IMG/VR virus record: IMGVR_UViG_3300042868_004675
Span: 1 to 42,545 of that record
Origin: a virus
DNA length: 42,545 bases
Reading direction: 5' to 3' (one strand)
This document shows, one piece after another, positions 1 to 28,484 of the stretch (within the stretch, counting starts at the first letter, position 1; each line of letters begins with the position of its first letter). Under the pieces are notes generated by a model. That model was given only the letters and a program-made list of their open reading frames with translations, made no database searches and was not told where the DNA came from. A program made the translations under genes and the position numbers.

Positions 1-137
1 AAGAAGAACTGGCGTGGATTGCCAACCCGCGTGAAGGGTTAGCCACGGTATGCAAATTCCTTCCAACAGCGGCGGATGTTCACGACTTCTTGCGCGCAAA
101 ACGTGCCAGAGAAGCAGAGTACAAGCCTGCCCACACA
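1..137. repeat. Terminal direct repeat, left copy (contig circularity)
   Basis: This segment recurs at the right end of the window (42409-42545). Bases 12-137 match exactly. Bases 2 and 11 differ from 42410 and 42419, and the second change is silent (CTG/CTT leucine). The offset gives a unique circle of 42,408 bp. The repeat lies inside a coding gene and has no regulatory look, so it is best read as an assembly overlap of a circular or circularly permuted molecule, not a defined phage terminus. The mismatches may be end-of-contig errors or population variants. Confidence 0.9.
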
Positions 138-407
138 GCCTATCGCCGCCTGAACGAAGACAGCGGGCCGTGGGAAAAGGAAACCGATTACGAGCGCAAG
201 GCCCGCGTGGTGAGGGAACTGCTGGGTTACAACCCATCGCACAAGGCGCAGCAGATTGAACCGAAGCGCGATCTTGTGCCGCCCACGGCTGAAGACTTGC
301 GGAACCTCAAGCTCAAAACCCCTCCCGGCCCGATCTCACGCCAGTTGCGCGAAAAGTTAGAGGCCGAAGGCTGGCCGTTCATTCCCAGCGAGGAACAAAG
401 AGCATGA
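1..407 (+). CDS. Early-operon protein of unknown function, C-terminal part (gene crosses the window join)
   Basis: The reading frame is open from base 3 and continues the gene that begins at 42180 at the other end of the circle. Joined, it encodes about 211 residues. The visible part is rich in charged residues, with a basic stretch (RAKRAREAEYK) and a C-terminus that is proline-rich and then helical. It follows the helix-turn-helix replication protein and overlaps the next gene by 4 nt, so it belongs to the replication operon. Its position, directly after an O-like initiator, is where phages often carry a replication accessory or loader protein, but I see no Walker motif and do not assign a function. 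Confidence 0.7.
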   Translation, partial: EELAWIANPREGLATVCKFLPTAADVHDFLRAKRAREAEYKPAHTAYRRLNEDSGPWEKETDYERKARVVRELLGYNPSHKAQQIEPKRDLVPPTAEDLRNLKLKTPPGPISRQLREKLEAEGWPFIPSEEQRA

Positions 408-598
408 ACGAGGTGACATTCTCCCCCTTTAACAGCTTTGACTACCTCGACACGCTGGAAGTCTGCCACGCTTATATCCGGGTGGTTGGCGATGATTTTC
501 AGAAGCTGACCGAAAAATACGATGACGCTCTCAAGCGGATCAACGACCTCCAAGCCGAGATTGAAGCCCTGAAAATCATTTGCCGGGACGCAAGCTAA
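404..598 (+). CDS. Small coiled-coil protein, unknown function
   Basis: A 64-residue acidic protein. The second half (from about residue 33, KLTEKYDDAL onward) has heptad-like spacing of leucine and isoleucine typical of a short coiled coil. The start overlaps the previous stop (ATGA), and the stop abuts the next ATG, so it is translationally coupled within the early operon between the replication genes and the NusG-like gene. No recognised family. Confidence 0.65.
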   Translation: MNEVTFSPFNSFDYLDTLEVCHAYIRVVGDDFQKLTEKYDDALKRINDLQAEIEALKIICRDAS

Positions 599-1051
599 AT
601 GTGGCTAATTATGCGCACTGACTTTCGGAAAGAGCCTTACGTGGTTTCCCAAATTGGGAACATGGGCTTCTCCGCATGGCATCCGGTCCAGGTTATAGCC
701 TGCCGCCCCGCAGTGGCCCGCCGCGTCACAGCCAAGGCTCAGTTGAGGGCTTATCGTGAGATAGCGATATTACCCCGCCGCGTGTTTGCATGCCTGCCAG
801 TGGCCTCCGTAGACGATCTACAGGGCATCCGGCACTTGGTAGGCGTCGAGTTTGACGGCGACATGCGGCCAGTGGTCATCCCTGACAGCCAAATCTCCGC
901 ATTCCGTGCGGTGATTGATGCGGAGAACAGGGCGGCACTGGCGCTATCACAAACTGCTAGCAGAAAGCAAAAGGCGAAATGGAGGTCGCTCCATGACGCT
1001 CTGGTTGAAATGATAGACGGGGCAAAGGCGCAGTTGGAGCAGGCAGCATGA
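599..1051 (+). CDS. NusG-like (NGN domain) putative transcription antitermination protein
   Basis: 150 residues. The N-terminal 110 resemble the NusG N-terminal domain: a starting W-hydrophobic-R-T strand, then GFSAWHPV, then the LPRRVFA strand, then a GIRHLVGVE segment and PVVIPDSQI followed by a helix. This is the usual order of conserved blocks in NusG/RfaH-type proteins. The C-terminal KOW domain is absent and is replaced by a basic helical tail (SRKQKAKWRSLHDAL). NusG paralogues bind the RNA polymerase clamp and suppress pausing or termination. The gene is among the last of the early operon, about 600 nt before a structured untranslated region and the late operon, which suits a late-gene antiterminator. 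Family assignment is by motif; the role is inferred. An alternative start is the ATG at 611. Confidence 0.7.
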   Translation: MWLIMRTDFRKEPYVVSQIGNMGFSAWHPVQVIACRPAVARRVTAKAQLRAYREIAILPRRVFACLPVASVDDLQGIRHLVGVEFDGDMRPVVIPDSQISAFRAVIDAENRAALALSQTASRKQKAKWRSLHDALVEMIDGAKAQLEQAA

Positions 1052-1419
1052 GGGTGGCCGTCTGTGGTGGGCGCGGCTTCAATCATTACGGCATGGTGTG
1101 CGGTGCATTGAACGCGGTTCACAAAAAACATGGGGTTTCGCTGCTGATCCACGGCGGGTGCAGCGGCGCGGATCAGTTGTCGGCGGAATGGGCGGAAGGT
1201 TTGGATATTCCCACGCGGGCTTACCCTGCCAAATGGGACGAGCACGGACGCAAGGCTGGTCCGTTACGCAATCAAGAAATGATTGATCACGGAAAGCCGG
1301 ATGCACTTGTTGCCTTTCCGGGCGGGAAAGGAACCGCTGACATGGTGTCGCGCGCTAAGGCGGCCAATATCCCAATTTGGGAAATTGCTGTGGAGAAGGC
1401 TACGGAGCAGGCGGCATGA
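1048..1419 (+). CDS. SLOG-superfamily (DUF2493/YspA-like) nucleotide-binding protein
   Basis: 123 residues with the SLOG (Rossmann-like) pattern. There is an N-terminal VAVCGGRGF loop, then LLIHGGCSGAD at about residues 31-41, then AGPLRNQEMI and finally ALVAFPGGKGT. These are the glycine-rich loops and the R-N pair seen in DUF2493 and related DprA/LOG-type folds. SLOG proteins bind nucleotides or nucleotide-derived ligands, and some act in DNA uptake or conflict systems. The role in phages that carry DUF2493 is not settled. It overlaps the NusG-like gene by 4 nt (ATGA) and so is co-translated with it. Confidence 0.75.
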   Translation: MRVAVCGGRGFNHYGMVCGALNAVHKKHGVSLLIHGGCSGADQLSAEWAEGLDIPTRAYPAKWDEHGRKAGPLRNQEMIDHGKPDALVAFPGGKGTADMVSRAKAANIPIWEIAVEKATEQAA

Positions 1420-1607
1420 GAGTGACGGATGCAACCCGCCGTGTGTTGGGCGTGAGGCGCGAAAAGAAAGCAGCAGAAAAAGCCGGGTTTGTGCGGAAAA
1501 CAGTTTTGAACAAACAGCTAGGTTCTGAAATGTATTTAGTCATTGTTTCTGCGTTCCCTTCGGTGGATGGAAAGTCCGTTTGGATTAAAACAGAAAACAG
1601 GCCATAA
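1416..1607 (+). CDS. Small basic protein, unknown function
   Basis: 63 residues starting at an ATG that overlaps the previous stop (ATGA). The N-terminal half is strongly basic (RREKKAAEKAG, RKTVLNKQ). The C-terminal half alternates hydrophobic residues (MYLVIVSAFP). It is the last gene before a 444-nt stretch with no coding region. No recognised family; the basic region could contact nucleic acid, which is only a guess. Confidence 0.55.
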   Translation: MRVTDATRRVLGVRREKKAAEKAGFVRKTVLNKQLGSEMYLVIVSAFPSVDGKSVWIKTENRP

Positions 1608-1649
1608 AAAAGTTACAATTACCCCCGATATTCTACGATGACGCATTGC

Positions 1650-2015
1650 ATATGCCGCTCAAGTGGGTTCGCCCCGTGGCTGTAACCGCTGCACCCGTTG
1701 CGGCGTGTTGAGAAGAATTGCCTGAAATTGAGCGGCCAAGAGATCAAGCTGAGATCAATGGTTGGTAAATCTGCCTCGCAAGCGGTGCCGCTCATCTAAT
1801 TCCCCTGCGTTCCATCAACCTCGCGCCGTTCCCCGACTGCACTCGTCTCGCGGTTAAAGCGCAGGGGATACCTATCCATCAGGTGTTTGTCCGAGCCTGT
1901 CCCCGTTTGGCGCGTCCTAGACGCATCGGACTCCAGTTCACAGAAATTCCAGCCCACGCCACTGCCACCCCTCCCGGTTCAGCGTTAGAGCAGATCGCGC
2001 CGTGTGGCTGGAACC
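1650..2015 (+). ncRNA. Candidate large structured RNA / late-operon leader
   Basis: No credible ORF lies between 1608 and 2051, yet the stretch is full of nested complementary segments. 1728-1736 pairs with 1654-1662 (9 bp) or, alternatively, with 1787-1794 (8 bp via 1729-1736). 1801-1811 pairs with 1858-1868 (11 bp, one G-U), enclosing 1817-1820/1852-1855 and 1823-1825/1849-1851. 1889-1894 pairs with 1926-1931, enclosing the hairpin 1912-1916/1920-1924. 1947-1958 pairs with 2001-2013 (12 bp, one bulge), enclosing 1962-1965/1990-1993. A GGG-UUCG-CCC hairpin sits at 1665-1674. The + strand direction is inferred because both neighbouring operons run rightward. It could be a free RNA, an antitermination leader or a packaging-related RNA; nothing matches a class I recognise. 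Confidence 0.55.
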
Positions 2016-2051
2016 CCATTCAAGACAATCCGTAACACAAGGAATTACACA

Positions 2052-2222
2052 ATGTACAGTCATGGCAAAAAGACGGGCCTTGTCGGCAAGCATGGCGTTA
2101 CAGCCGACATGGGCAAGAAGACCCCCAGCACGTTCAGCAAGGTCACTGCCTCTGCTGGCAAGTCCAGCGGCATCAATCGCAATGGCGACCCGAAGGGCTG
2201 CAAGCCCATGAAGGGCTGCTGA
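2052..2222 (+). CDS. Small basic Gly/Lys-rich protein, unknown function
   Basis: 56 residues, very basic (HGKKTG, MGKKT, repeated K/S/G) and ending in a short Cys-containing tail (KGCKPMKGC). The ATG is preceded by AAGGA at a normal distance. It is the first gene of the late operon, directly downstream of the structured region. It is plausibly a nucleic-acid binder, but no family is recognised. Confidence 0.55.
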   Translation: MYSHGKKTGLVGKHGVTADMGKKTPSTFSKVTASAGKSSGINRNGDPKGCKPMKGC

Positions 2223-2369
2223 ATGAACAGTTCCGAGTTCCTGCGCCTCTATGAGGAAAGCCTGATCCGCTACGAAGCGGAGACTTGGGCTGCCATCATG
2301 GACAAAGAGCGCGGGGGCTTCTGGAAGCGTTCCGTTACGGCAATTCGTTCGTTGTTTCAACAGGGCTAA
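2223..2369 (+). CDS. Small protein before the terminase genes
   Basis: 48 residues (begins MNSSEFLRLYEESLIR), starting at the base after the previous stop and read without internal stops up to 5 nt before the small terminase candidate. The tight packing and protein-like helical N-terminal half (EFLRLYEESLIRYEAETW) support a real gene. It ends with a basic segment (WKRSVTAIRSLF). No family assignment; it could assist packaging because of its place. Confidence 0.5.
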   Translation: MNSSEFLRLYEESLIRYEAETWAAIMDKERGGFWKRSVTAIRSLFQQG

Positions 2370-2373
2370 ATCA

Positions 2374-2628
2374 ATGGCCTTCGTCAAGGGACAGTCGGGC
2401 AATCCAAATGGTCGCCCCCCTGGTTCAAAGAACAAGATCAGTGAGAAGTTCATCAGCGCCATCACAGCCGACTTCGAAGAACACGGCGAGACGGTGATTG
2501 AGAAGGTTCGCACTGAGAAGCCCGAAAACTATCTCAAGATTGTGGCTGACCTTGTGCCGAAGGATTACAACATCGGCCAAGACCAGCCCTTCAGGATGAC
2601 GTTTGAATGGCTGAAGCCGAGCGAATAG
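2374..2628 (+). CDS. Putative terminase small subunit (DUF5681-type N-terminus)
   Basis: 84 residues. The N-terminus carries the GQSGNPNGRPPGSKN signature of DUF5681-type phage proteins that often sit directly before a large terminase. The remainder is helical (KFISAITADFEEHGETVIEKV). It overlaps the large terminase by 22 nt. A small terminase recognises phage DNA and hands it to the motor. At 84 residues it is shorter than classical TerS proteins and has no obvious helix-turn-helix, so the role rests on position and the N-terminal signature. Confidence 0.6.
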   Translation: MAFVKGQSGNPNGRPPGSKNKISEKFISAITADFEEHGETVIEKVRTEKPENYLKIVADLVPKDYNIGQDQPFRMTFEWLKPSE

Positions 2629-3914
2629 TAATCCCATATTCGCCGCGCCGCCATTTTCTCCCATACCATGCAGCAGACAAGCGGTGGCGCATCATTGTGG
2701 CTCACCGCCGTGCAGGCAAGACCGTTGCATGTGTGAACGAACTGATCCGCGCTGCGCTCACATGCGAGAAGCCTGAACCAAGGGTGGCCTATGTCGCGCC
2801 GTACTTCCGTCAGGCCAAAGACGTTGCCTGGTCCTACCTCAAAGAGTTCACCCGAGACATTCCCGGCAGAAGCGTCAACGAAAGCGAACTGCGCGTCGAT
2901 CTCCCAAACGGTGGACGTGTGCGGCTGTATGGTGCCGACAATCCTGACGCCCTTAGAGGCTTATATCTTGATGGTGTTGTTCTCGACGAGTTCGCGGACA
3001 TGCGCCCGCGCTTCCTGCCGGAGGTTATCCGTCCTGCTCTCTCTGACAGACGAGGGGGCCTTACACTAATCGGGACGCCCAAGGGTCACAACGAGTTCCA
3101 TGACCGCTGGGTGAGCGCACAGGATGACCCCGAGTGGTTTCACATGATGCTCAAGGCTTCCGAGACGAAGATTGTTGATCCGGAAGAACTGGCAAGCGCG
3201 GCCAAGATGATGAGTGAGGCGCAGTATGCGCAGGAATATGAGTGCAGCTTTGAGGCAGCGATTGAAGGCGCTTACTATGGCCTTGCTCTCGAAAAGGCTG
3301 CTCAAGAGGGCCGAGTTGCCAAGGTGCCGCACAACCCTGCACTTCCCGTCTTTACGGCATGGGACTTGGGAATTGGCGACGATACGTCCATCTGGTTCGC
3401 ACAGCGGTCTGGCGGTTGGCTTCACATCATTGACCACTACGCAACCAACGGACAAGACGCCAGTCATTACGTGGATGTTCTTCGGGCCAAGCCCTACACC
3501 TATGCCAATCACTTTCTGCCGCATGATGCCAACAATCGTGAGTGGACCAACGGCAAATCAAGGCTCGACACGCTCAAGGCGCTTGGGCTTAAGGATTGTA
3601 AAGTAATTCCCAAGATGCCTGTCGATGACGGCATCAACGCTGTTCGGTTGCTTCTGCCGCTCTGTCGGTTTGATGCTGAGAAGTGCGAAGGTGGCTTGGA
3701 AAGCCTGCGCCAGTATCGCCGGGAATTTGACGAAGGCAAGCGGGTGTTCAAGCCCACGCCATTGCATGACTGGACCAGTCACGATGCGGATGCCTTCCGG
3801 TATCTCGCCACTGGCCTGGAGCCTGAAGCAGCGGTTCCAATTGACGTTCCCCGATATTCGGGCCGCAGAAGGCGCGGTGGAGCCTCTGACGATAGTTCGG
3901 GGTGGGCTGCATGA
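2607..3914 (+). CDS. terL: Terminase large subunit
   Basis: 435 residues, normal for a TerL. The ATPase half has Walker A HRRAGKT at 33-39, Walker B VVLDEF with the DE pair at 127-128, and the coupling motif LIGTPKG at 154-160. The nuclease half starts at AWDLGIGDD (Asp 253) and has a further acidic cluster near HDADAFRY at about 395-400. It pumps DNA into the prohead through the portal and cuts it. It overlaps both its neighbours (small subunit, portal), the usual packaging cassette. Start is the ATG inside the end of the small subunit gene. Confidence 0.95.
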   Translation: MAEAERIVIPYSPRRHFLPYHAADKRWRIIVAHRRAGKTVACVNELIRAALTCEKPEPRVAYVAPYFRQAKDVAWSYLKEFTRDIPGRSVNESELRVDLPNGGRVRLYGADNPDALRGLYLDGVVLDEFADMRPRFLPEVIRPALSDRRGGLTLIGTPKGHNEFHDRWVSAQDDPEWFHMMLKASETKIVDPEELASAAKMMSEAQYAQEYECSFEAAIEGAYYGLALEKAAQEGRVAKVPHNPALPVFTAWDLGIGDDTSIWFAQRSGGWLHIIDHYATNGQDASHYVDVLRAKPYTYANHFLPHDANNREWTNGKSRLDTLKALGLKDCKVIPKMPVDDGINAVRLLLPLCRFDAEKCEGGLESLRQYRREFDEGKRVFKPTPLHDWTSHDADAFRYLATGLEPEAAVPIDVPRYSGRRRRGGASDDSSGWAA

Positions 3915-5542
3915 ATACTGACAAGACCATTGACGAAGACGACAGCCTGCTACTCGAAATTCGGGAACGCTATGAGGCTGGCCGTACCTACATCAACGAA
4001 TGGCGCACTGAGGCTCGTGAGGCGTTCGACCTGTACGCTGGCAAGCAGTGGTCTGAGCAGGACCGTCAGAAATTAACTGAGCAGCAGCGCGTTCCGGTGA
4101 CGTTCAACCGGATTGCCATCCTGATTGATGCCGTCATTGGCTATGAAGTCAACAACCGCCAGGAGACGCGCTACATTCCGCGCACCCCCGGCGATGCCAA
4201 GGTCAATGAACTGCTGACTGAGGCGGCGAAGTATTTCAGGGACAGTTGCGATGCTGAATTTGAAGAGTCAGATGCGTTCCGCGACATGGCAATATGCGGT
4301 ATGGGCTGGACCAATGACCGCATTACTGATGAGCGCAATTCAGATTATGATCTGGTACGAGACCGCGTTGACCCGCTTCGCATGCTGTGGGACCCGTCTT
4401 CGCGCAAGCCGAATCTGGAAGACGCTCGCTGGCTGATCTACGAAACCACGATGTCGAAGGGCGAGGCCAAGGCGCTCGTTCCTGAGTGGGATGGCGAATA
4501 CGTCAGCGTTGATTGGCAGATTGAAGACACGGACGTTGTAGGCACCAACAACCCGCGTGACAGCTACAAGGGCAACGACCTTGAGAAGGCAGCGATTCGC
4601 CAGATCAAGGTGCTTGAGTATCAGTACGTCATTGACGAGTTTGAGCATGTCATCACCAACCCGATGACGGGCGAGGTTGCCACGCTCACCAACGAGCAGT
4701 GGCTTGAACTGCCGGAAGCGGATGCCAAGGAACTTGGCAAGATGCGTGTGCAGCGCCGCAAGCGTGAATGGAAGCGTGCCTTCATGATTGGTGGCGAGGT
4801 GTTCGAAAAGAAGCACCCGTATCCCAAGGGGCCAACCTATTTCTGCGTCACTGGCAAGCGTGACCGCAACACGGGCCATTGGTTCGGTCTGGTTCGCAGC
4901 CTTCGTGACCCGCAGATGTGGTCGAACAAGTTCTTGAGCCAAATCATGCACCTCATCAACACCTCGGCCAAGCCGGGATATGATGTTGAGAAGGGCGCGA
5001 TTGACAACGTGCAGAAGTTTGAAGCCTCTGCGGCTAAGCCTGGTGCCATCAACACGTTCGTTGACGGCGCATTGCAGCAGGGCAGGGTTCAGCGCCGCGA
5101 GGCTGTGGGCCTGCCGCCTGACCTGTCCAACCTGATGCAGTATGCGAATGAGAGCATGCAGAACGTCTCGGGCATCAACCAGGAACTTCTTGGCATGGCT
5201 GACCGGGATCAGGCGGGCGTTCTGGAGTACCAGCGCAAGCAATCTGCGGTCACGCTGTTGGCTCCGCTGTTCGACTCGTTCCGGCGTTATCGCAAGATGG
5301 CGGGTAGGTGCTGGCTCTATTTCATGCAGCATTACCTGACCGATGGCCGCTTGATCCGCATCACGATGGATGACGGTAGCCAGATGAACGTGCCGTTCCA
5401 GAAGGGTCAGATACCGAACCCCAGCTATCAGGGTGGCGGAATGCAGCAGCCGCAGGGCAATCAGTCGATGGGCATGCCTGCTCAGTCGGCCCCTGTCCAA
5501 ATGCCGCAGATGCCAGCGGAGGGCGCAGAGTATGGACGATAA
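3911..5542 (+). CDS. P22-like portal protein, N-terminal portion (split portal)
   Basis: 543 residues resembling the P22-type portal: an acidic helical N-terminus, the VPVTFNRIAILIDAVIGYE segment, a NRQETRYIPR motif, a DPLRMLWDPSS region and the long helical section NLMQYANESMQNVSGINQELLG. Portals form the dodecameric DNA gate at one capsid vertex. The chosen ATG overlaps the TerL stop (ATGA); an upstream GTG at 3902 is possible. The protein ends in a Met/Gln/Pro-rich tail soon after the YLTDGRLIRI strand, before the conserved YDVIVD block that P22-type portals carry in the same chain. That block opens the next gene instead. Confidence 0.85.
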   Translation: MNTDKTIDEDDSLLLEIRERYEAGRTYINEWRTEAREAFDLYAGKQWSEQDRQKLTEQQRVPVTFNRIAILIDAVIGYEVNNRQETRYIPRTPGDAKVNELLTEAAKYFRDSCDAEFEESDAFRDMAICGMGWTNDRITDERNSDYDLVRDRVDPLRMLWDPSSRKPNLEDARWLIYETTMSKGEAKALVPEWDGEYVSVDWQIEDTDVVGTNNPRDSYKGNDLEKAAIRQIKVLEYQYVIDEFEHVITNPMTGEVATLTNEQWLELPEADAKELGKMRVQRRKREWKRAFMIGGEVFEKKHPYPKGPTYFCVTGKRDRNTGHWFGLVRSLRDPQMWSNKFLSQIMHLINTSAKPGYDVEKGAIDNVQKFEASAAKPGAINTFVDGALQQGRVQRREAVGLPPDLSNLMQYANESMQNVSGINQELLGMADRDQAGVLEYQRKQSAVTLLAPLFDSFRRYRKMAGRCWLYFMQHYLTDGRLIRITMDDGSQMNVPFQKGQIPNPSYQGGGMQQPQGNQSMGMPAQSAPVQMPQMPAEGAEYGR

Positions 5543-13483: not shown

Positions 13484-15318
13484 ATGGCTACTACCGACTT
13501 TCCGGTTAGTGTAAACTTAGCCGCATGGTTGATTTGGTAGAGACTGTCATTTGCCGAGACTGTGGCGAAGAGAAGCCAAGGTGGAAACCCCAGCAAAATC
13601 TTTGTCACGACTGTTATAAAATCTATCTGAGGAACTACGCTTCCGCGAACCGTGATAAATTGAACGCTGACAAGCGGAGTGATTATCATCGGAAAGTCAA
13701 GGAAGACCCCGTTTGGAAAGAGTCTGAACGGCTTCGCCAGTTAGAATTTTATCACAGACTAAGGCGAGAAGTCTTTGAAGCATATGGTGGCATGAAGTGT
13801 GCGTGCTGCGGAGAAACGGAAGAAACCTTCCTAACATTAGACCACATCAATAACGACGGTGCGGAACATAGGCGTTCTTTGTCTAAGACAGGGCGCAAGG
13901 TTACGTCTGGCGTGTGGCACTGGATCAAGCGGAACAATTTTCCGCCGGGGTTCCAAGTTCTCTGCATGAACTGCAACTTTAGCAAATTCCGTAATAACGG
14001 TGTTTGCGCCCATAAGCTTAGTCAACCTTGAAAACTGCGTGAATTCGGGGGAAGTCCAGACCGGACAATCCCGAGCCAAGCCCCGTAAGGGGAAGGTGTA
14101 ACGACTAGGGGGAAGCCCCGTAGAGCCAAGTGGCTCGAAGCGCGCAGGCCCGGACCAACGGGTATGATATAGTCTGGTCTGCATAGGAATATGCAGCGGC
14201 TCGCACCAAACAAACGAATTTGCGAGCGGCGTCAGAATAACGAAATGGCGTGAACATAACGTGGCAGTCCGCATGCCGTTAAGCTGTGGTCTAAGAAGAT
14301 CGCGCGTGAAGCATTAAAAGAGACCATGGCCTCGAAATTTATGGGGACCAGCTCTAATAATCTCATTCAGGTTTTCGATGACACAGCCAAAGGCTCGGGC
14401 GACCGAATCCGTGTTCCACTCCGCATGCAGCTCTCGGGCCGTGGCGTGGGCGAAACCGAAGCACTCGAAGGCAACGAAGAGTCGCTTTCGATCTACTACG
14501 ATGATCTGCTCATCAATGAAGTCACCCATGCCGTTCGCATGAAAGTGACCATTGACGCCCAGCGCGTGCCGTTCTCGGTGCGTGAAGAGGCCCGTCTTGG
14601 TATCCAGGATTGGTACTCGGAGCGTTTTGACCAGTCCATCGCCAACCAGCTTGCGGGCAACACCGCGCAGTCTGACTCCCTGTACACGGGCAACAACACG
14701 GCGCTTGCGCCGTCTTCCGGTACTGGTGCTGACCGCCGTTGGATGATCCGTCAGCAGGACGATGAAACCGACCACACCACGGAAGCCTCGCTTTCGTCTT
14801 CGGACACCTTCAGCCTCAAGCTGCTGGACCGCGCCGTTGCGATTGCCAAGACTTCCTCGCCGCTGATCCGCCCCGTCAAGGTGGGTTCGCAGTCGTACTA
14901 CGTGGCCTTCCTCCACCCTTATCAGGTGAAGGATTTGCGCACGAACACCAACACGGGCGACTGGCTCGACATCCAGAAGGCAGCCCTCGGCGGCGGTGAC
15001 ATTCAGGACAACCCGATCTTCACGGGCGCTCTTGGTGTCTACAACGGCGTGGTGCTTCACGAATGGACCCGTCTCCCAACCGCTGCAACTGGTACCAATG
15101 CCGCGAATTGCCGCCGTGCCGTCTTCTGCGGTGCGCAGGCAATCTCGATGGCTTGGGGTCAGGGAACCTCCGAAACGCCTAAGTATGTCGAAGACCTCTT
15201 CGACTACGACCGCCAGTTCGGTGTGTCCGTGCAGTCCATCTTTGGTGCAAAGAAGCTTCAGTTCAACTCGAAGGACTTCGGCACCATTGTAATGTCAACC
15301 TGGGCTGCGGCTCCGTAA
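13484..15318 (+). CDS. Major capsid protein, N4-gp56 family, interrupted by a group I intron
   Basis: Spliced coding sequence is exon 1, 13484-13506, joined to exon 2, 14262-15318, giving 359 residues. The join restores MATTDFPVGSPHAVKLWSKK, an N-terminus that matches the N4-gp56 capsid family, and continues in frame into KFMGTSSNNLIQV, RVPFSVREEARLG and NQLAGNTAQSD, the conserved blocks. Without splicing, translation stops at 13540; starting only at the ATG at 14326 would lose 29 conserved residues. AAAGG lies 8 nt before the ATG. The protein forms the icosahedral head shell. The scaffold lies upstream and a decoration-like protein downstream. Confidence 0.9.
13507..14261 (+). mobile_element. 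Group I (subgroup IA-like) self-splicing intron in the capsid gene
   Basis: The 755-nt intron follows an exon ending in U and ends in G. P1: 13503-13509 with 13517-13523, including the U-G wobble 13506/13520 at the splice site. P3: 14035-14040 with 14142-14147. P4: 14045-14049 with 14070-14074. P5: 14054-14057 with 14063-14066. P6: 14075-14077 with 14095-14097, plus P6a 14081-14084/14089-14092. P7: 14103-14107 with 14170-14174. P7.1 and P7.2: 14108-14111/14116-14119 and 14123-14127/14132-14136. P8: 14149-14152 with 14159-14162. P9: 14179-14185 with 14190-14196. P9.1: 14199-14205 with 14221-14227. The Q-like AATCCCGAGCCAAG and S-like GATATAGTC strings are classic. The P7.1/P7.2 pair points to subgroup IA, as in phage introns such as td. 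Confidence 0.93.
13525..14031 (+). CDS. Intron-encoded HNH homing endonuclease
   Basis: 168 residues inside the intron between P1 and P3. It has an N-terminal zinc-ribbon-like pair (C10-x2-C13, C27-x2-C30) and then an HNH module: C92-x2-C95, LTLDHIN with Asp106-His107, and C147-x2-C150. Such enzymes cut intron-free alleles so that repair copies the intron in. The ATG is two bases after the internal guide (13520-13523) and lacks a good ribosome site. The unspliced capsid reading frame stops at 13540, just past this start, so re-initiation coupling is possible. Codon use looks more AT-rich than in neighbouring genes. Confidence 0.88.
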   Translation: MVDLVETVICRDCGEEKPRWKPQQNLCHDCYKIYLRNYASANRDKLNADKRSDYHRKVKEDPVWKESERLRQLEFYHRLRREVFEAYGGMKCACCGETEETFLTLDHINNDGAEHRRSLSKTGRKVTSGVWHWIKRNNFPPGFQVLCMNCNFSKFRNNGVCAHKLSQP

Positions 15319-20267: not shown

Positions 20268-20672
20268 ATGGCTAAGACCCCCATGAAGAACAACCCCTTT
20301 GATCCGAAGCAGATCAAGTGGGCGCTCAACAACGCTGGCGGCAGTGGTGCGGGCGGCATCTTCGGCGCTATGTCAGGAATGCCGTGGCAGCAGAAGCGCG
20401 GCAACCTGTGGATGACCATCGACCCCCGCATGCGCGCTGTCTACCCGTCAGGCACCACGCCATTCGGCCTCGGCGGCTATGGCGGTGGCGATGCTGGCGG
20501 CAACGGTGGCGGTGGCCCGCAGATCGAAAAGCCGCCCCTGCCGCCCTTCGACCCCAACAACCCGAACGGCAACGGTAACGGCACTGACATTCAGCGCCTT
20601 CTTGAACTGCTGAAGCCCCCGCCAATTGGCACGGGCGCTCAGTGGCGCAACACTATGAAGTATGGTGCCTGA
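20268..20672 (+). CDS. Gly/Pro/Asn-rich small protein
   Basis: 134 residues starting MAKTPMKNNPFDPKQIKW. A short ordered N-terminal segment is followed by Gly-rich and then Pro/Asn-rich low-complexity sequence (PPLPPFDPNNPNGNGNG) and a helical end (IQRLLELLKPP). It is close in style and place to the preceding gene, and probably both serve the connector. No named family. Confidence 0.55.
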   Translation: MAKTPMKNNPFDPKQIKWALNNAGGSGAGGIFGAMSGMPWQQKRGNLWMTIDPRMRAVYPSGTTPFGLGGYGGGDAGGNGGGGPQIEKPPLPPFDPNNPNGNGNGTDIQRLLELLKPPPIGTGAQWRNTMKYGA

Positions 20673-20675
20673 TAG

Positions 20676-22139
20676 ATGCCTCGCGTTCTGTTCGGACGGC
20701 TACAGACTGACCAGCCCGACTTGCTCAACGGTGAACTTGAGGAAGCGGAAAACTGCATTCCGTATGTGCAGAGCTATGGGCCGTTTCCAGAACCCGTTGA
20801 CTACTCGGCAGCGGTAGCCACAACGGCGCGTGGTGGATACTCGACCAAGGACCAGTCCAACACGGTCTATACCTTCGTCGGCACGGATACCAAGCTGTAC
20901 AAGGAAAGCGCCACCGTGATGAACGATGTAAGCCGCACTGCGACTTACACCACGGCAACCGACTTCACGGGCTGGGAGTTTGTCACCTTCGGCAATACCG
21001 TGATTGCGGCAAACGGCATTGACACGCTACAGACCTATACTCTGGGTACGTCTTCGCAGTTCCTTGATATGTCGGCCTCTGCTTCCGCACCTGTTGCGGC
21101 GCATCTTTCCATTGTCCGTGACTTCGTGTTTACCGGAGGCCAGCCGACCAACCAGAACCGCATTCAGTGGTCCCGCATCAATAACCCGCTCCGCTACACG
21201 CCCTCGCAGCGGTTTCAGTCTGACTACCAGGATTTGCCGGGAACAGACCAGACCATCAAGCGTGTGACGGGTGGCGACTTCGCCTGCATCCTGACCAATT
21301 CAAGCGTCTGGCGGGCAACCTACGTGGGTTCGCCGCTTGTGTTCCGCTTCGATGAAGTCTCCCGCAACACGGGCTGCTTTGCCTCTGGTTCTGCGGCCCG
21401 CTTCCAGAACATGACGTTCTTCCTGTCCGGTGACGGTATGTACGTCTTCGACGGCGAGTCCTGCCAATCCATCGGCGCGGAGTCGATTGACGAGACGGTT
21501 CTGGACGATCTGAACATCAACTATCTGAACCGCATCACCTCGACCATTGATCCGGTCAACAAGTTGTACCTGATGGCGTACCCGTCCACGGCCTCGTCGG
21601 ACGGCACCTCGACGCGCATTCTCATGTATTCGTGGACAACCCAGAAGTGGGCGTTTGCCTCGCAGAACCTTGAGGTGCTGTTCAACCACATGAATGGTGG
21701 CATCACGCTTGAGGGTCTGGACGCCTACGGAACGCTTGATGCGCTGGCCTTCTCTCTGGACAGTTCAACGTGGCAGGGTGGCCTGTCGGCGCTCTCCTGC
21801 ATCACCACTGACCACAAGATTGCCCGCTTTACGGGTTCGGCCAAGACGGCCCGCTTCGTGACGGGTGAAAGCGAACTGGTGACAGATGCTCGCGCCTTTG
21901 TCCGTAGCCTTCGCCCGCTGGTGCAGGGTGACAGTTCAACCTCTGTGACCGCCTATGTGGGTGGCCGTGACCGCCTCATCGACAGCGTGACCTGGGGGGC
22001 CGCATCCACGATGAACGCCACGGGAACTTGCCCTGTCCGGTCCAATGCCCGCTATCACCGCTTGAAGATGGAAGTCTCGGGTGGCTTTGACCGTGCAATG
22101 GGTTCGGAAATTGAGTTCACCAAGGAAGGTGTCCGTTGA
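20676..22139 (+). CDS. Tail hub / packaged-DNA stabilisation protein (P22 gp10-like)
   Basis: 487 residues against about 470 for P22 gp10. It opens with a GEL-E-AENCIPY segment typical of these proteins. Beta-propeller-like repeats follow (YTFVGTDTKLYK; WEFVTFGNTVIAANG; DFVFTGGQP; FLSGDGMYVFDG), each a short strand pair ending in Gly-Asp or Gly-Asn. Such proteins plug the portal channel and hold the tail needle. Position after the adaptor fits the P22 order gp4-gp10. The stop overlaps a TTG start of the next gene. Confidence 0.75.
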   Translation: MPRVLFGRLQTDQPDLLNGELEEAENCIPYVQSYGPFPEPVDYSAAVATTARGGYSTKDQSNTVYTFVGTDTKLYKESATVMNDVSRTATYTTATDFTGWEFVTFGNTVIAANGIDTLQTYTLGTSSQFLDMSASASAPVAAHLSIVRDFVFTGGQPTNQNRIQWSRINNPLRYTPSQRFQSDYQDLPGTDQTIKRVTGGDFACILTNSSVWRATYVGSPLVFRFDEVSRNTGCFASGSAARFQNMTFFLSGDGMYVFDGESCQSIGAESIDETVLDDLNINYLNRITSTIDPVNKLYLMAYPSTASSDGTSTRILMYSWTTQKWAFASQNLEVLFNHMNGGITLEGLDAYGTLDALAFSLDSSTWQGGLSALSCITTDHKIARFTGSAKTARFVTGESELVTDARAFVRSLRPLVQGDSSTSVTAYVGGRDRLIDSVTWGAASTMNATGTCPVRSNARYHRLKMEVSGGFDRAMGSEIEFTKEGVR

Positions 22140-22501
22140 GCCGGATTTACTCAATCAACGACCCCGGCAACGCTTTCCGGCGCACAGACGGCGCACCCGT
22201 CAAGATTGGCGGCATATTCAAGACGGATACCGATGACAGTCAGATCACCTTCACGGACGGGCAAGGGCGCAAGTATTGGTTCGCTGATACAACTAGCGGC
22301 AATGTCACGATTACCCTTCCTGACGCTGCCGAAGTCACGCCAGACACGCCATTCGTGGTCAAGCGCGTTTCAGCAGGGGCCAACTCCCTGACGGTCCAGA
22401 CGGGCGGCGGCAACATTGATGGCGCGGCCACGAAGTCGATGCCAACGCAATACGACACGTTTACCTTTGTGTCTGACGGCACAAACTACTGGATCGTCTA
22501 A
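22136..22501 (+). CDS. Small beta-rich structural protein
   Basis: 121 residues from a TTG start (GGAAGG upstream) that overlaps the hub stop. The C-terminal part TSGNVTITLPDAAEVT, VKRVSAGANSLTVQT and FTFVSDGTNYWIV is the repeat-like pattern seen in many phage and prophage proteins that end in an NYWIV-type strand. Likely a tail accessory or fibre-foot protein. Confidence 0.65.
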   Translation: MSRIYSINDPGNAFRRTDGAPVKIGGIFKTDTDDSQITFTDGQGRKYWFADTTSGNVTITLPDAAEVTPDTPFVVKRVSAGANSLTVQTGGGNIDGAATKSMPTQYDTFTFVSDGTNYWIV

Positions 22502-22956
22502 TGAGGTATGTCCCGTCAGGTGTACCCGTCGAGGATTTGCATATCGTCTGGGACAGGGCTTGGCCCTATCTCGAAAAGTCCATCAGGCGATTTGCGGGCG
22601 TCCAGACTGTTCTAAACGAGGGCTATGTTCTCCAGCAGTTGTTCCACAAGCAAATGCAGCTTTGGATTGGCTGGGACGTTGACCTGAATGTTCCCGTTGG
22701 TGCGTGTCTTACGGAAATTGTTTCTGATGCACGGTTTCCAGACAAGTTGATTCTTAATTTCCCGATGCTTGGCGGGCGTGAGTGGAACAAGTGGGGCGAC
22801 AGCCTGTGGCTGCTGACAAAGGCGTGGGGCATCGAAAAGGGCTGCACCCATGCTCAGTACAGCGGAAGGCGTGGCTGGTCCCGTTGGTATGGTTTTGTTG
22901 AATGCGGAACGAACGAGGTTGGATTGCCTATGTTCGTGCGAACTCTGAAGAGGTGA
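22501..22956 (+). CDS. GNAT-like protein of the virion cluster
   Basis: 151 residues. The strand-helix layout and the segments AWGIEKGCTHAQYSGRRGWSRWYG and QLWIGWDVDLN resemble a family of phage proteins with a shortened GNAT (acetyltransferase) fold found between tail hub and ejection genes. The acetyl-CoA loop (R/Q-x-x-G-x-G/A) is not clear, so enzymatic activity is uncertain. Start overlaps the previous stop (TAATG). Confidence 0.6.
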   Translation: MRYVPSGVPVEDLHIVWDRAWPYLEKSIRRFAGVQTVLNEGYVLQQLFHKQMQLWIGWDVDLNVPVGACLTEIVSDARFPDKLILNFPMLGGREWNKWGDSLWLLTKAWGIEKGCTHAQYSGRRGWSRWYGFVECGTNEVGLPMFVRTLKR

Positions 22957-22960
22957 TGTG

Positions 22961-23827
22961 ATGGCATTTGATGGCGGTGGCGGAAATACCAAGACCAAGA
23001 CCACAACTGAGCCGTGGTCTGGTGTAAAGCCGTATCTTTTGAGCGGCTACAAGGACGCGCAGGCGCTCTACAAGCAGGGCGCTCCCGCTTACTATCCGGG
23101 GCAGGCAACCGCGCCCATGTCCAGCTATTCCAAGCAGGCATTGGACGCTACGGCGCAACGTGCGGCCTACGGGTCGGACGTAACCCGCGCCGCGCAGGGT
23201 CAGTTGACCGATACAATCAACGGTAAATACCTCAACAGCAACCCTTACCTGTCAGGGGCCATTGATGCCGCCGTGCGTCCAGTGACGGAAGCCTTCACTG
23301 GCAGCGTGATGCCTGGGATTGACAGCAACTTCTCGGCTGCTGGTCGCTACGGTTCCGGCATGCAACAGGGTGCCTACAACGATGCGAACCAGACGCTTGC
23401 GCAGCAAGTGGGCGACATCGGAACCAACATGTCATACCAGAACTACGGCGATGAACGTCAGCGCCAGATGCAGGCCATGCTGTTCGCTCCTGAGATGGCG
23501 AAGCAAGACTATTATGACCTCGGCATGCTGGGTCAGGCTGGTCAGGGTTACGACCAGTACAACCAGAACCTCATCAACGCTGATATTGAGAAGTACAATT
23601 ACAATCAAAATTCTGACTGGAACTTCCTCAACGACTACCTCGGCCTTCTAAACGGCGCAACGGGCGGTTCGTCCACGGTCAAAGCACCGGGGCAGGCAGG
23701 CATGTCTCCGATAACGGGCGCACTCGGCGGCGCAATGTCGGGCGCATCGCTTGGCAGTGCATTTGGTCCGATTGGCACCGGGATTGGCGCTCTTGCGGGC
23801 GGCTTGTTCGGCGGATTTGCGGCGTAA
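22961..23827 (+). CDS. Putative internal virion / DNA ejection protein (1 of 3)
   Basis: 289 residues. It opens with a WSGVKPYLLSGYKDAQALY block common to the first ejection-type gene of P22-like and related podophages. The middle is a Gln/Ala/Asn-rich helical region. The C-terminus is a glycine-zipper-like membrane-active tail (GALGGAMSGASLGSAFGPIG then GIGALAGGLFGG). Such proteins leave the head with the DNA and help form a channel across the host envelope. AGAGGTG-type ribosome site precedes the ATG; a GTG three bases earlier is possible. Confidence 0.65.
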   Translation: MAFDGGGGNTKTKTTTEPWSGVKPYLLSGYKDAQALYKQGAPAYYPGQATAPMSSYSKQALDATAQRAAYGSDVTRAAQGQLTDTINGKYLNSNPYLSGAIDAAVRPVTEAFTGSVMPGIDSNFSAAGRYGSGMQQGAYNDANQTLAQQVGDIGTNMSYQNYGDERQRQMQAMLFAPEMAKQDYYDLGMLGQAGQGYDQYNQNLINADIEKYNYNQNSDWNFLNDYLGLLNGATGGSSTVKAPGQAGMSPITGALGGAMSGASLGSAFGPIGTGIGALAGGLFGGFAA

Positions 23828-23839
23828 AGGAGCAGAAGA

Positions 23840-25015
23840 ATGGCTTGGCAAGATTTGATCCGCAGTCTCGGCACTGAAAACGCTCCGTTCGGCTTCGGCC
23901 CTGACGTTTCCCCGTCTCAGGGTGCTGTTGACCCCGCATACAACGCGGGCATGCAGATGATTGGCAACGTGGGCATGGGTATGCTTGCGAGTGGCGAGCG
24001 CAACCCGATGCGGGCGCTTGGCCGTTCGTACCTCGTCGCGCAGAACAACGCACAGGAGCAGAACAAGAACCAGTACATTGCCGCTGAGATGATGTCTGCC
24101 GCTGAAGAGAAGAAGCAGAAGCGGCAAGAAGAAGCGGAACTGCGCCAGAAGCGCAACGATTGGCTCAAGTCCGTGAGTGACCCGAAGCAACGCGCCACGC
24201 TTGAGGCTTACCCAGAACTGGCTGACGAATACATTCAAGCAACTGATCCTGTGTTTCAGCAGGCTGATGCAAATGGCGGTTCCTCAACTTGGGGCATGCA
24301 AGTTGTTCCCCTTCGGGACAAGGACACTGGAAAACTTGTTGCTGGTCAGTTTAACCAAAGCCAAGGCGGATTGTTTGTTGGAGGTCAGCCTGCCGATCCA
24401 AACAAATATGAATATGACCCAGCTAGTCTTTCAGAAGAACGTGCTTCTGGCACGTTGAGCGGCAATGCGCCTCGCTATGTCGTGGAGACGTACACCAAGG
24501 AAATTCGCCCTCAGATGTCTAGCATTGCAGACACGGTTACAACCCTCAATCAGGCCAAGACCTACCTGAAGAAGGGTATTCAGACCGGAAGCATGGCTGA
24601 CAACATCCAGGCGCTTCGCAGCCTTGGCGCGCAGCTTGGGTTCAATGTTGACGAGCGTGTTCTAGCTGATACGCAGTCCTATCAGAACTTTATCGGCAAC
24701 GTGGTCATTCCGCGCATGAAAGAACTTGGCGGTAACGACTCCAACGAAGAACTGAAGAAACTGTATTCTCTTTCTGGTGGCGATATTACTCAGTCGCTTT
24801 CCGCTCTGACGAATACAATTGACTTCATTGAGCAGTTGCAGCGCCGCAAGTTCAAGACGCTCAAGGCCAGCGAGGATGTTGCTCTCCGCTACATTCCGGG
24901 GCTTACGCCGATTGATCTTGGTGGCCTCGCCCCGCCGCCCGCCGCAAGTGGTGGCGTACCTGATATGTCCACAATGTCTCAAGAAGAACTGGAGGCCATT
25001 GCCAATGGACAATGA
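23840..25015 (+). CDS. Putative internal virion / DNA ejection protein (2 of 3)
   Basis: 391 residues, strongly helical. An Asn/Gln/Met-rich N-terminus with a short glycine segment leads to a charged coiled coil (AAEEKKQKRQEEAELRQKRN, about 88-107). After an interrupting domain come long helices (QAKTYLKKGIQTG; ELKKLYSLSGGDITQSL). The DPKQRATLEAYPELADEY element occurs in proteins of this place in podophages. No catalytic signature (no transglycosylase glutamate motif) seen. Overlaps the next gene by 11 nt. Confidence 0.6.
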   Translation: MAWQDLIRSLGTENAPFGFGPDVSPSQGAVDPAYNAGMQMIGNVGMGMLASGERNPMRALGRSYLVAQNNAQEQNKNQYIAAEMMSAAEEKKQKRQEEAELRQKRNDWLKSVSDPKQRATLEAYPELADEYIQATDPVFQQADANGGSSTWGMQVVPLRDKDTGKLVAGQFNQSQGGLFVGGQPADPNKYEYDPASLSEERASGTLSGNAPRYVVETYTKEIRPQMSSIADTVTTLNQAKTYLKKGIQTGSMADNIQALRSLGAQLGFNVDERVLADTQSYQNFIGNVVIPRMKELGGNDSNEELKKLYSLSGGDITQSLSALTNTIDFIEQLQRRKFKTLKASEDVALRYIPGLTPIDLGGLAPPPAASGGVPDMSTMSQEELEAIANGQ

Positions 25016-26612
25016 TGCACTCAGGGAAGCCGCCCGCAAGGAACTGTTGCGCCGTGCCGCCAAGAAAGAACTTGAGCGCCGCAAGGCTTCAAAGCCTGCC
25101 GCCCCTGAAATGTCTGCCGCTGATTACGGCATGGATATGCTGCGCGGTGCCGGGACAGGCTTGGTCAAGGGTGTTTCTAGCCTTGCCGGGACGATTGGCG
25201 ATGCCAAACAAATGTCCGGTGACGTTCTGGGCTGGGGCGCTGAGAAACTTGGGTTCTCGCCTGAAGTGCAGGATATGGCGCGCACCGCAGGCAAGGCTAT
25301 CACTTTTCCCGGTTTTGCTACCGCCCCAACCAGCGAACAGCTTCAAGGAACGGTTGAAAGCGTTACTGGCCCGCTTCAAGAGGCGCAGTCGCTTCCCGGC
25401 CAGATCGTGCAGCGCGTTGGCGAGTTTGCACCGTCTGCCATTGGTGGCGGTGGGACGTACCTTCGCAAAGCGGCAATGGTTGGTGTCCCGGCTGTGGCAA
25501 GTGAGCTTGCGGGCCGCATTCCAGGCGTAGAGGGTTCGGGCTATCAGCCATATGTGGAAATGGCAGCTGGTCTTGCCACTGGCCTTCCCATTGCAGCGGG
25601 CGGCAAAGGCAACGCCATGAAGGACATGCGGGACAAGGCTCCCACGCTTGAGAAGGTGAGGGAAGAGAAAGACGCGGCATACAAAGCCGTGGATGATGCC
25701 AAGATTGTTTATGACCAGAACGCCTACAAGGGCGCGGCCATGAAGATCAAATATGGCCTTGCTGACAAGGGCTGGGACAAGTTGCAGGGCGGTCAGGTTT
25801 TGCCGCTTGTCAATCGTCTGGACGCCATGCTCAAGCCCAACGCTGTTGCGAATTGGACGAAGGTTGACGGCATCCTGAAGGACGCGAAGAAGATACTCCG
25901 TAGCGGCGCTGATGACACAACCAAAACCCATGTAGGTATTTTTGTTGACCAGCTTGAGGGGCTTGTGAAAAGCGATGCCTTCAAGTCACGCAGCGGCATG
26001 TCGAAGGAAGTTGTTAAAGAGACTATCGACACGGCAAGAGAAAATGCACGGCGGTCTATTCTTGCGCGTGAGATTGAAACCATGAAGCGCAGGCTTCCCG
26101 GCTATCTTGTTGGCGATGAGGGGGCCTTTAGAAACCAGTTTGGTTCCTATCTTAGGTCGCCAGAAGGCGCGTCTTTAAAGCCCGCAGAGAAAGCAGCGTT
26201 TGCCAAGGTCGTGCGCCGTGAGGGGCCGTTGAATGTCGCTCACAACATGGGAAGCCGCTGGGGTCAGATCGCGGGCGGCAGTACGGGTTCTGTCATTGGT
26301 GGTCTTGCGGGGTCCGTGTTTGGCCCGCTTGGCACAGCGGCGGGCGCTGTCGCTGGCGGCGCGGTCAACGTGGCAACTCAGACGGGTTTCCGCAAACTCA
26401 TGGACAAGGTGACGGAAAAAGCTGTTGACGATGCCATGAAGACGGTTCTGGCGGGAAAGAAAGCGTCTGGCGAGGCCATGTCAAAGCAAGCGCAAGAAAC
26501 GCTACGGGCGCAAATCCGTGCCGCTCTTACCGCCGAAGCCGCCTCGACGCCGGCCCGTGAAAACTGGTTCCTTCAGGACGCCAACGGAACGACTTACAGC
26601 CCGCCTCGGTAA
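25005..26612 (+). CDS. Putative internal virion / DNA ejection protein (3 of 3)
   Basis: 535 residues, mostly helical. Start chosen at an ATG with GGAGG 9 nt upstream, inside the end of the preceding gene. It begins with a basic amphipathic helix (ALREAARKELLRRAAKKELE). A middle region includes an AGRIPG motif, and near residue 430 comes a glycine-rich hydrophobic segment (GGSTGSVIGGLAGSVFGPLG) like a membrane-penetrating hairpin. The third large gene after the hub and before a fibre gene, it fits the ejection triplet arrangement of P22 (gp7, gp20, gp16), though I do not see direct similarity to them. Confidence 0.6.
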   Translation: MDNDALREAARKELLRRAAKKELERRKASKPAAPEMSAADYGMDMLRGAGTGLVKGVSSLAGTIGDAKQMSGDVLGWGAEKLGFSPEVQDMARTAGKAITFPGFATAPTSEQLQGTVESVTGPLQEAQSLPGQIVQRVGEFAPSAIGGGGTYLRKAAMVGVPAVASELAGRIPGVEGSGYQPYVEMAAGLATGLPIAAGGKGNAMKDMRDKAPTLEKVREEKDAAYKAVDDAKIVYDQNAYKGAAMKIKYGLADKGWDKLQGGQVLPLVNRLDAMLKPNAVANWTKVDGILKDAKKILRSGADDTTKTHVGIFVDQLEGLVKSDAFKSRSGMSKEVVKETIDTARENARRSILAREIETMKRRLPGYLVGDEGAFRNQFGSYLRSPEGASLKPAEKAAFAKVVRREGPLNVAHNMGSRWGQIAGGSTGSVIGGLAGSVFGPLGTAAGAVAGGAVNVATQTGFRKLMDKVTEKAVDDAMKTVLAGKKASGEAMSKQAQETLRAQIRAALTAEAASTPARENWFLQDANGTTYSPPR

Positions 26613-26843
26613 ATGCCTTCTCCAGCCATAGGGAATGCCCGCTGCCTTCTTGCGGGCGTTCTCTGAACGGCGAACGTGGCGATATGCCCACCAATCATAA
26701 ATCTGAAACGGAAACACCGTGAGGGCGTACGCCCCCATGAACGCCCAAGCGCCAGCAATGTAGCCGTTCGGCGTCAGGTTGAAGCGGATGTTCACAGCCA
26801 AAATGGCGAACATCACCAACCCCTGAAATAACTTCCAAAGCAT
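26502..26843 (-). CDS. Antisense small membrane protein inside the late operon
   Basis: 113 residues on the minus strand. A GGGGGG ribosome site precedes the ATG. Two membrane segments (FQGLVMFAILAVNIRF and GYIAGAWAFMGAYALTVFPF) are followed by YDWWAYRHVRR and a basic tail. The sequence looks like true protein (membrane topology, positive-inside end) and fills the 258-nt gap between two plus-strand genes. It overlaps the end of the upstream gene by 111 nt on the opposite strand. Confidence is limited by the unexpected orientation and the unusual Arg/Gly tail in the overlap. Confidence 0.5.
   Translation of the reverse strand: MLWKLFQGLVMFAILAVNIRFNLTPNGYIAGAWAFMGAYALTVFPFQIYDWWAYRHVRRSENARKKAAGIPYGWRRHLPRRAVSRSVGVLKEPVFTGRRRGGFGGKSGTDLRP
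26634..26660 (+). terminator. GC-rich hairpin after the ejection genes
   Basis: A 9-bp stem (26634-26642 with 26652-26660, one G-U) and 9-nt loop, followed by a short pyrimidine run (CTC) but no real T-tract. It lies 21 nt after the ejection protein stop and may weaken read-through into the fibre gene. Confidence 0.35.
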
Positions 26844-26870
26844 CCCCCCACATACCACAGGAGCCTTCCT

Positions 26871-28028
26871 ATGGCAACTTTGCGTCGCTGGAGCACCTCG
26901 GCCTCCGGTAATGCCACCGTCACAGGTGGCGTTAACACCATCAATTTCGCGGAAGGGCAAACCCCTGGTTCCGTCAACAACTCTGCCCGTGAAATGATGG
27001 CACAGGTTCGGAGCATCTACACCCCGTCAGAATGGGGCTGGGTGGAACATTCCGCAACCGCTTCCGTGGCTTCCCAGACCGCCTTCAAGCTGGGCGGAAA
27101 CCAGACAACCAACTGGACGGCGGGACGGCGCTGGCGTCTCAAGTCGGGGTCTACCACCCGTTACGGCTCGGTTGTGTCCTCGTCCTTCACGGCGGAAACC
27201 ACCATTACCGTGACTGTGGATAGCGGGTCGCTTTCGGCGTCTCACTCGCTTGCGGCGCTGGCTGGAATTGACAGCAACCACACCCCTGCATTTGCCGCTG
27301 GTTCCGCTTCCGCGCCTTCCATCATCCCCAACGGTGACACCAACACGGGCTTCTGGTTCCCGGCTGCTGATACGATTGCAGCTAGCACGGGCGGCTCTGA
27401 GCGGCTTCGCATCACTTCTGGCGGTGATGTCGGTATCGGCGCAACCCCAGTTAACAAACTCGACGTTGCGGGAGCACTTCGCTCTACGGGGGTCACTACC
27501 CCAACTTCTGGCGCTGGCATTGAAATGTTCTATAGCGCGGATGTTGGCTACATTATCCCTTACGATAGAACGGCGGCAGCCTTCAAGGCGCTGCAAATCC
27601 AAACCCTCGAGTGCAACATTTTTGGCGGCGGAACAAACCGCCTCAAAGTGGATAGCAGCGGCAACATCCTTAACGTCTCAACTGGTGGCCTCGGCTACGG
27701 CACGGGCAGCGGTGGCACGGTTACGCAGATTACCAGCAAGTCTACGGGCGTCACGCTGAACAAGACCAACGGACTTATAACCATGAATGCCGCCGCTTTG
27801 GCCGCAGGGGCAACTGTGTCATTTACTGTTACAAACAGCACAATGGCTGCGGCTGACTTGGTGATTGTGAACTGCCAAAGCGGGTATGCTTCTGCTGGTG
27901 CCTACCGAGTGCAGGCAGAAACCGGAGCGGCGGGGTCTTTCCAGATTTCCCTCACCAACACCACGGGCGGTAGCCTCTCGGAGGCTGTGGCTGTGAAATT
28001 TGCCATCATCAAAGCCGTGACTTCATAA
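26871..28028 (+). CDS. Tail fibre protein
   Basis: 385 residues, Ser/Thr/Gly-rich and beta-structured. The N-terminus has the INFAEGQTPGSVNNSAREMM block, a virion-binding motif I recognise from tail fibres of podophages and their relatives. The middle shows SERLRITSGGDVGIG and RLKVDSSGNIL, fibre-shaft repeats with an R-L-x-V/I-x-S-x-G-x-V/I pattern. No chaperone-type peptidase end is evident. A second receptor-binding candidate exists at 10230, so host recognition may be shared. Confidence 0.75.
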   Translation: MATLRRWSTSASGNATVTGGVNTINFAEGQTPGSVNNSAREMMAQVRSIYTPSEWGWVEHSATASVASQTAFKLGGNQTTNWTAGRRWRLKSGSTTRYGSVVSSSFTAETTITVTVDSGSLSASHSLAALAGIDSNHTPAFAAGSASAPSIIPNGDTNTGFWFPAADTIAASTGGSERLRITSGGDVGIGATPVNKLDVAGALRSTGVTTPTSGAGIEMFYSADVGYIIPYDRTAAAFKALQIQTLECNIFGGGTNRLKVDSSGNILNVSTGGLGYGTGSGGTVTQITSKSTGVTLNKTNGLITMNAAALAAGATVSFTVTNSTMAAADLVIVNCQSGYASAGAYRVQAETGAAGSFQISLTNTTGGSLSEAVAVKFAIIKAVTS

Positions 28029-28261: not shown

Positions 28262-28267
28262 ACTCCG

Positions 28268-28483: not shown

Positions 28484-28484
28484 C

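Follow-up and report, generated by a model that had tools for sequence, protein, structure and literature searches.

A conserved, modular leader RNA ahead of a phage late operon and its linkage to a NusG-like gene

In phage lambda the last delayed-early regulator, Q, is followed by the late leader (qut/pR') and then by the late genes; Q is not an NGN protein, and it loads via DNA and a paused polymerase. We know of no chain of RNA hairpins in the lambda late leader comparable to the one described below. The NusG paralog LoaP acts on two long operons whose leaders each contain a UNCG hairpin, which LoaP binds and which antitermination requires; it contacts the RNA through both of its domains, KOW included (PMC12691694). 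Phage HK022 has put, a leader RNA that forms two stem-loops over about 70 nt close to where transcription starts; it requires no phage protein, and the RNA binds the beta' zinc-binding domain of RNA polymerase (PMC9378689). Here we describe a structured leader ahead of the late operon in a phage DNA of 42,545 nucleotides (the window) and compare it, and the NusG-like gene linked to it, with these systems.

The late leader and the phages that carry it

Genes in the window are ordered as O-like replication gene, NusG-like gene, leader, terminase, portal, capsid and virion proteins, with the left-end genes following the O-like gene (41525–42346, near the right end) if, as would appear, the genome is circularly permuted. 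At the left end are small genes, the NusG-like gene, a SLOG-family (YspA/cpYpsA-like) gene of the delayed-early block (1048–1419; Pfam 1.2e-19) and a short ORF, and then the leader. Beyond it lie a first late ORF of 56 aa (2052–2222, + strand) with homologues in contigs L004 and L005, a DUF5681-type ORF (2374–2628, + strand) that is by position a probable small terminase and that, with the large terminase gene (2607–3914, + strand), forms the start of the late operon, and genes for the portal (3902–5542), major head protein (14326–15318) and endolysin (31496). Just upstream of the major head protein gene, and probably interrupting it, is a group I intron (RF00028, 64.8 bits, 13978–14196) with an HNH endonuclease ORF at 13525–14031 (region 13525–14240).

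The gap at 1608–2051 is 444 nt long and, at a cutoff of 60 aa, contains no ORF of its own, in agreement with a preliminary description that had seen no credible ORF there and had listed a series of long stems. Its 8-bp stem (1729–1736/1787–1794), 11-bp stem (1801–1811/1858–1868), 6+5 bp stems (1889–1894/1926–1931 and 1912–1916/1920–1924) and long stem (closing pairs 1949–1954/2006–2011) can form; its 9-bp stem, AUAUGCCGC/GCGGCGUGU, comes from the minimum free energy fold and is not the conserved one, homologues forming instead the covariation-supported helices P1–P3 (1647–1684) and P4 (1687–1705). The same description had proposed comparing folding energy with that of shuffled sequence, and by this measure the whole gap does not surpass dinucleotide shuffles, whichever strand is folded (z −0.25 on +, +0.24 on −), so that the argument from visible stems fails by itself and it is the homologues that settle the matter. 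Single modules do fold better than shuffles (z about −3.2 for 1798–1872 and about −2.0 for 1945–2016).

The leader element is present in 21 contigs, the window and 20 others, which represent about 14 distinct sequences and are all uncultivated phage records. Two of the large-terminase relatives, L004 and L005, have a matching leader ahead of a matching small first late gene; the NusG-like protein as query gave L085–L095, a pattern made only from the DNA of the strongest block added L097, L100, L103, L105, L107 and L108, and the NusG-like alignment as query added L119 and L120. DNA of L085–L094 matches the window leader at 75–97%, in separate blocks. Among INPHARED isolated phages and plasmids DNA similarity to the leader is not above chance, and the NusG-like alignment had no match in the species genomes searched; the pattern of the core module, M1, gave 10 matches there, in unrelated phyla, for a chance estimate of about 7, and these cover little beyond the seed stretch of the model (E-values are rough, from a short calibration). 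Three isolated phages with related portal proteins, Rhizobium RHph_Y1_10 (20500–28600 examined), Paracoccus KLEP18-1 and Microcystis Mae-JY35, have neither NusG-like genes nor leader RNAs. Rfam 15 covariance models have no match in window positions 1500–2150 at E up to 10, and Rfam has none in the leaders of L004, L005, L119, L100, L093 and L087. We conclude that the 1608–2051 gap is, almost certainly, a real and previously undescribed leader, a conserved structured RNA.

The leader is modular, and in the window it consists of a promoter-like block followed by modules M1, M2, M3, M4 and M5. The conserved element is larger than the interval from 1650 to 2015 first assigned to it, reaching from the promoter-like block at 1601 to the end of the last module at 2019. 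The block (1601–1639, + strand) has the form GCCATAA-N4-GTTACAAT-N9-TATAT-like in an alignment of 14 upstream regions, lies at a fixed spacing from M1 downstream, and occurs once in the window. It looks like a promoter, although it is missed by a generic scan for sigma-70 sites, and would place the transcript start. A pattern scan of positions 1–4500, which would miss a terminator lacking a T-run, found no intrinsic terminator. Most modules have a similar linker at their borders, the closing stem being preceded by AATTC and followed by (G)AACC or ATACC; this is perhaps a joint for module exchange.

The M1 core RNA

M1 (1640–1725, + strand), roughly 85 nt in length, is the core of the leader and was not singled out in the preliminary description. 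Its first hairpin is built in three parts and carries a UUCG-type loop; a second hairpin (P4), of varying sequence, comes next. P1 (1647–1650/1681–1684), P2 (1654–1658/1676–1680) and P3 (1665–1667/1672–1674) are stacked on one another with the internal loops UAU and UCAAG (1659–1663) between them, and P3 is capped by the UUCG loop at 1668–1671; P4 pairs 1687–1692 with 1700–1705. A candidate pseudoknot between 1659–1662 and 1708–1711 (UCAA/UUGA) is paired in 85.7% of cells, without compensatory change.

The preliminary description had named covariation across homologues as the test of a structured RNA, and compensatory changes are found both in M1, where they affect P1, P2 and P4, and in M5. 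In the 14 M1 sequences the helices are paired in 99.4% of 167 cells, pair 8/45 occurring as U-A, C-G and G-C and pair 16/40 as C-G or G-C, and the covariance model built on M1 (R1) scores 65–105 bits in all M1 carriers and at most 12 bits elsewhere. Slid pairings give 28–53%, and no shuffle reaches the observed score, although the M1 sequences are related and shuffles are therefore little proof by themselves. The C-G/G-C swap in P2 arose in at least three separate events on the NusG-like tree (in L100, in L004 with L095, and in L090), as counted by parsimony. P4 has seven distinct arm pairs among the 14 sequences, in which 42 of 44 positions pair, as against 68% when arms are crossed between different phages; the alignment for this check and for that of the first M5 stem was hand-made. 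Columns 18/38 hold a near-invariant G-U and columns 9/44 either G-U or G-C. Because the complement of a G-U pair would be a C-A mismatch, the structure fits a + strand RNA, and these conserved pairs point to RNA rather than DNA hairpins; we regard both fold and strand as firm.

The GGG/CCC stem beneath the M1 loop is invariant; the loop itself is UUCG in 11 of 14 sequences and UCCG, UUAG and UUUG in one each. In most members the folding energy of M1 does not stand out (z about −0.9 to −2.3). Conservation is higher in M1 than in the neighbouring NusG-like gene, at 99% versus 82% in L091 and 89% versus 63% in L100, and each genome has one copy. It is the sole module remaining in L103 and L107, which marks it as the indispensable part of the leader.

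A conserved leader peptide (MPLKWVRPV...) starting at the ATG at 1652 might also account for the conservation of M1, since in several members M1 is overlapped by such a frame, about 20 codons long. Compared with the window, though, the frame shows 2 synonymous and 39 non-synonymous codon differences, the start codon is missing in L004, L095 and L105, and the changes within M1 track base pairing and not coding. The frame is without coding constraint, and we reject the peptide as an exceedingly improbable explanation.

Modules M2–M5, inserts and the late genes

The modules behind M1 differ in how widely they are shared. M2 (1726–1797, + strand), a hairpin insert closed by the 8-bp stem at 1729–1736/1787–1794, has a different sequence in almost every phage, and some phages lack it. 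M3 and M4 are each common to a subset of the phages: the M3 hairpin (1798–1872, + strand; CCCCUGCG/CGCAGGGG) is conserved in 10 sequences, and the optional M4 hairpin (1873–1943, + strand; GUCCGA/UCGGAC with an inner GCGUC/GACGC) is 91–96% identical within its subset and absent elsewhere. M5 (1944–2019, + strand), closed by 1949–1954/2006–2011, is found with its covariance model (R2) in all phages with the NusG-like gene that we tested except L103 and L107; its closing stem is 97.2% paired, with three pairs changed on both sides.

Between the end of M5 and the first late ORF lie about 30 nt in the window and about 20–35 nt in most members, and M3 and M5 are unusually stable. Both features would fit a post-transcriptional role, with the hairpins stabilising or processing the late mRNA (as RNase III sites) or controlling translation of the first late gene. 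We consider such a role quite unlikely, as the first late genes vary between members, a reverse gene follows M5 in several, and the linkage of M1 to a NusG paralog would be left unexplained.

These reverse-strand genes are inserted directly after M5 in L087 (10054–10540), L090 (1770–2230), L094 (892–1745) and L105 (reverse side), and in most cases encode a small helix-turn-helix protein. In L087 the insert has GGAACCC at either end, and in L094 it lies between GGAACCC and GGCGAACCC; in L086, without the insert, M5 is joined directly to the late gene. The insert looks like a cassette at a fixed site in the leader. In L119 two large leader modules (4813–5145) have the same ends (ggcggcgtggaaggacacgc ... 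gccggtatcaagcccggccc) as a structured stretch of L020 (3714–3854), a different phage with no NusG-like gene within the fetched stretch, and this is possibly a mobile or shared RNA module. The first ORF behind the leader of L093 (9138 onwards) looks by eye like a GIY-YIG nuclease fused behind the usual late-protein start.

That the element is directly ahead of the terminase genes in nearly all members bears on another of the earlier candidates, a packaging-related RNA; hairpins at this position could mark a pac/cos region or form a packaging RNA beside the terminase genes. The same M1 and M5, however, precede TerL proteins of different subfamilies (phrog_7579-, 3717- and 5653-type), those of the window and L091 being 33% identical over the nuclease part only. 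The conserved G-U pairs are a mark of RNA and not of DNA hairpins, and large optional inserts and whole reverse genes are present within or after the element. Because M1 is kept from carrier to carrier although the terminase subfamily differs, we disfavour a packaging site and think it very unlikely.

The NusG-like protein, its proposed role and its counterparts

The NusG-like gene (599–1051, + strand) encodes a protein of 150 aa. Sequence searches alone are weak for its assignment, Pfam NusG (PF02357) matching 6 of 9 family members with a best value of 4.9e-7 and not matching the window copy on its own, and we therefore turned to structure. An AF2 model from 13 family members (pLDDT 85) has an NGN fold at residues 1–95 and a single long helix at 96–149; the top 30 Foldseek matches in the PDB are all NusG/RfaH/Spt5-type chains, and VIA against the PDB gives Z 12.1 to RfaH (8pen) and 11.7 to NusG. 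By its predicted fold the protein is thus an NGN-fold NusG paralog, and the initial call of a NusG-like protein was right. No KOW domain is matched in a Pfam scan of nine members, and the model has the helix in its place. The helix contains a conserved basic stretch, ASRKQKAKWRSL, which is a plausible RNA contact.

All 19 M1 contigs with upstream sequence have the NusG-like gene upstream on the same strand, although carriers first found through the NusG-like protein have the gene by construction; the independent cases are L100, L103, L105 and L107, found by DNA pattern, and L004, found by its terminase. The search is also reciprocal, in that new NusG-like genes found by protein brought new M1s. 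Every NusG-like gene found is accompanied by M1 except that of L005, which has no detectable M1 even with filters off, the most diverged NusG-like protein (24–26% identity) and a retained M5. Other TerL relatives have no M1, some of those contigs being short upstream. Only about 43 nt separate the NusG-like gene from M1 in L091, L103 and L105, and the linkage could in part reflect shared descent of neighbouring genes. In L065 a longer NusG homologue (3698–4375) lies ahead of the late genes with no leader RNA.

Of the roles first suggested for this RNA we favour that of an antitermination leader, given its co-occurrence with a NusG paralog of NGN fold. By analogy with LoaP, we think it fairly probable that M1 serves to load the NusG-like protein onto RNA polymerase and so makes late transcription processive. 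Region 1608–2051 would be the 5' leader RNA of the late operon, and the transcript would fold into M1 right after its start, presenting a recruitment signal for the phage protein supplied from the delayed-early block just upstream. M1 might be contacted by the basic C-terminal helix or by the NGN domain itself, which would take the position of housekeeping NusG on the clamp of the host RNA polymerase, and the loaded polymerase could then bypass Rho and terminators over a late operon of more than 20 kb. M3 and M5 would be further conserved hairpins, acting in leader stability or pausing or as terminator-like targets, and M2 and M4 would be inserted hairpins, open to exchange and no obstacle to the modified polymerase. 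Several observations weigh against this reading: the protein has no KOW domain, the pattern scan recognised no terminator in the leader, L005 has M5 but no detectable M1, two M1 loops are UUAG or UUUG, and the folding energy of M1 is ordinary in most members.

Alternatively, M1 could itself bind the host RNA polymerase in the manner of put, the NusG-like gene being a neighbour that acts elsewhere. M1 is of similar size to put and likewise has two hairpins directly after a promoter-like block; we nevertheless judge this unlikely, as no M1 is found without a NusG-like gene where the contig extends upstream.

With loading of the NusG-like protein by M1 as the preferred reading, the chances seem to us evenly balanced that the locus is a new phage late-antitermination system, in which a KOW-less NusG paralog is loaded by a new class of RNA, M1, with exchangeable hairpins behind it. 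The open-access literature that we searched contains no paper that links a structured leader to a phage-borne NusG paralog. Such a system would mean that a minimal protein, together with an RNA tag that matches it, lets phages take over the NusG slot of the host polymerase, in independent parallel to both LoaP/dfn and lambda Q, and it would bear on the minimum that a NusG paralog needs for specificity. The pair is small (150 aa and about 85 nt), so it can be tested in a simple reporter.

The locus shares features with each of the described systems. RfaH has the NGN fold and is among the best structural matches of the NusG-like protein, but is recruited by the ops DNA element. HK022 put is similar in anatomy and place, as a phage leader RNA of about 70–85 nt with two stem-loops near the promoter (here a putative one); put serves early operons without a dedicated protein, whereas a phage NusG paralog is always linked to M1. 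In components the locus resembles LoaP and the dfn/mln hairpin of Bacillus velezensis, where a specialised NGN protein is likewise encoded near its target on a very long operon, and 12 of the 14 M1 loops are of the UNCG type. The phage protein differs in being without a KOW domain, and M1 in having three helices interrupted by internal loops, then a second hairpin, with further modules behind it; the operon here is one of phage late genes, and the pattern scan recognised no intrinsic terminator in its leader. Because of the missing KOW domain and the terminator result we do not file the phage system as LoaP. In layout the likeness is to lambda, with the NusG-like gene in the slot of Q and the RNA in that of the late leader.
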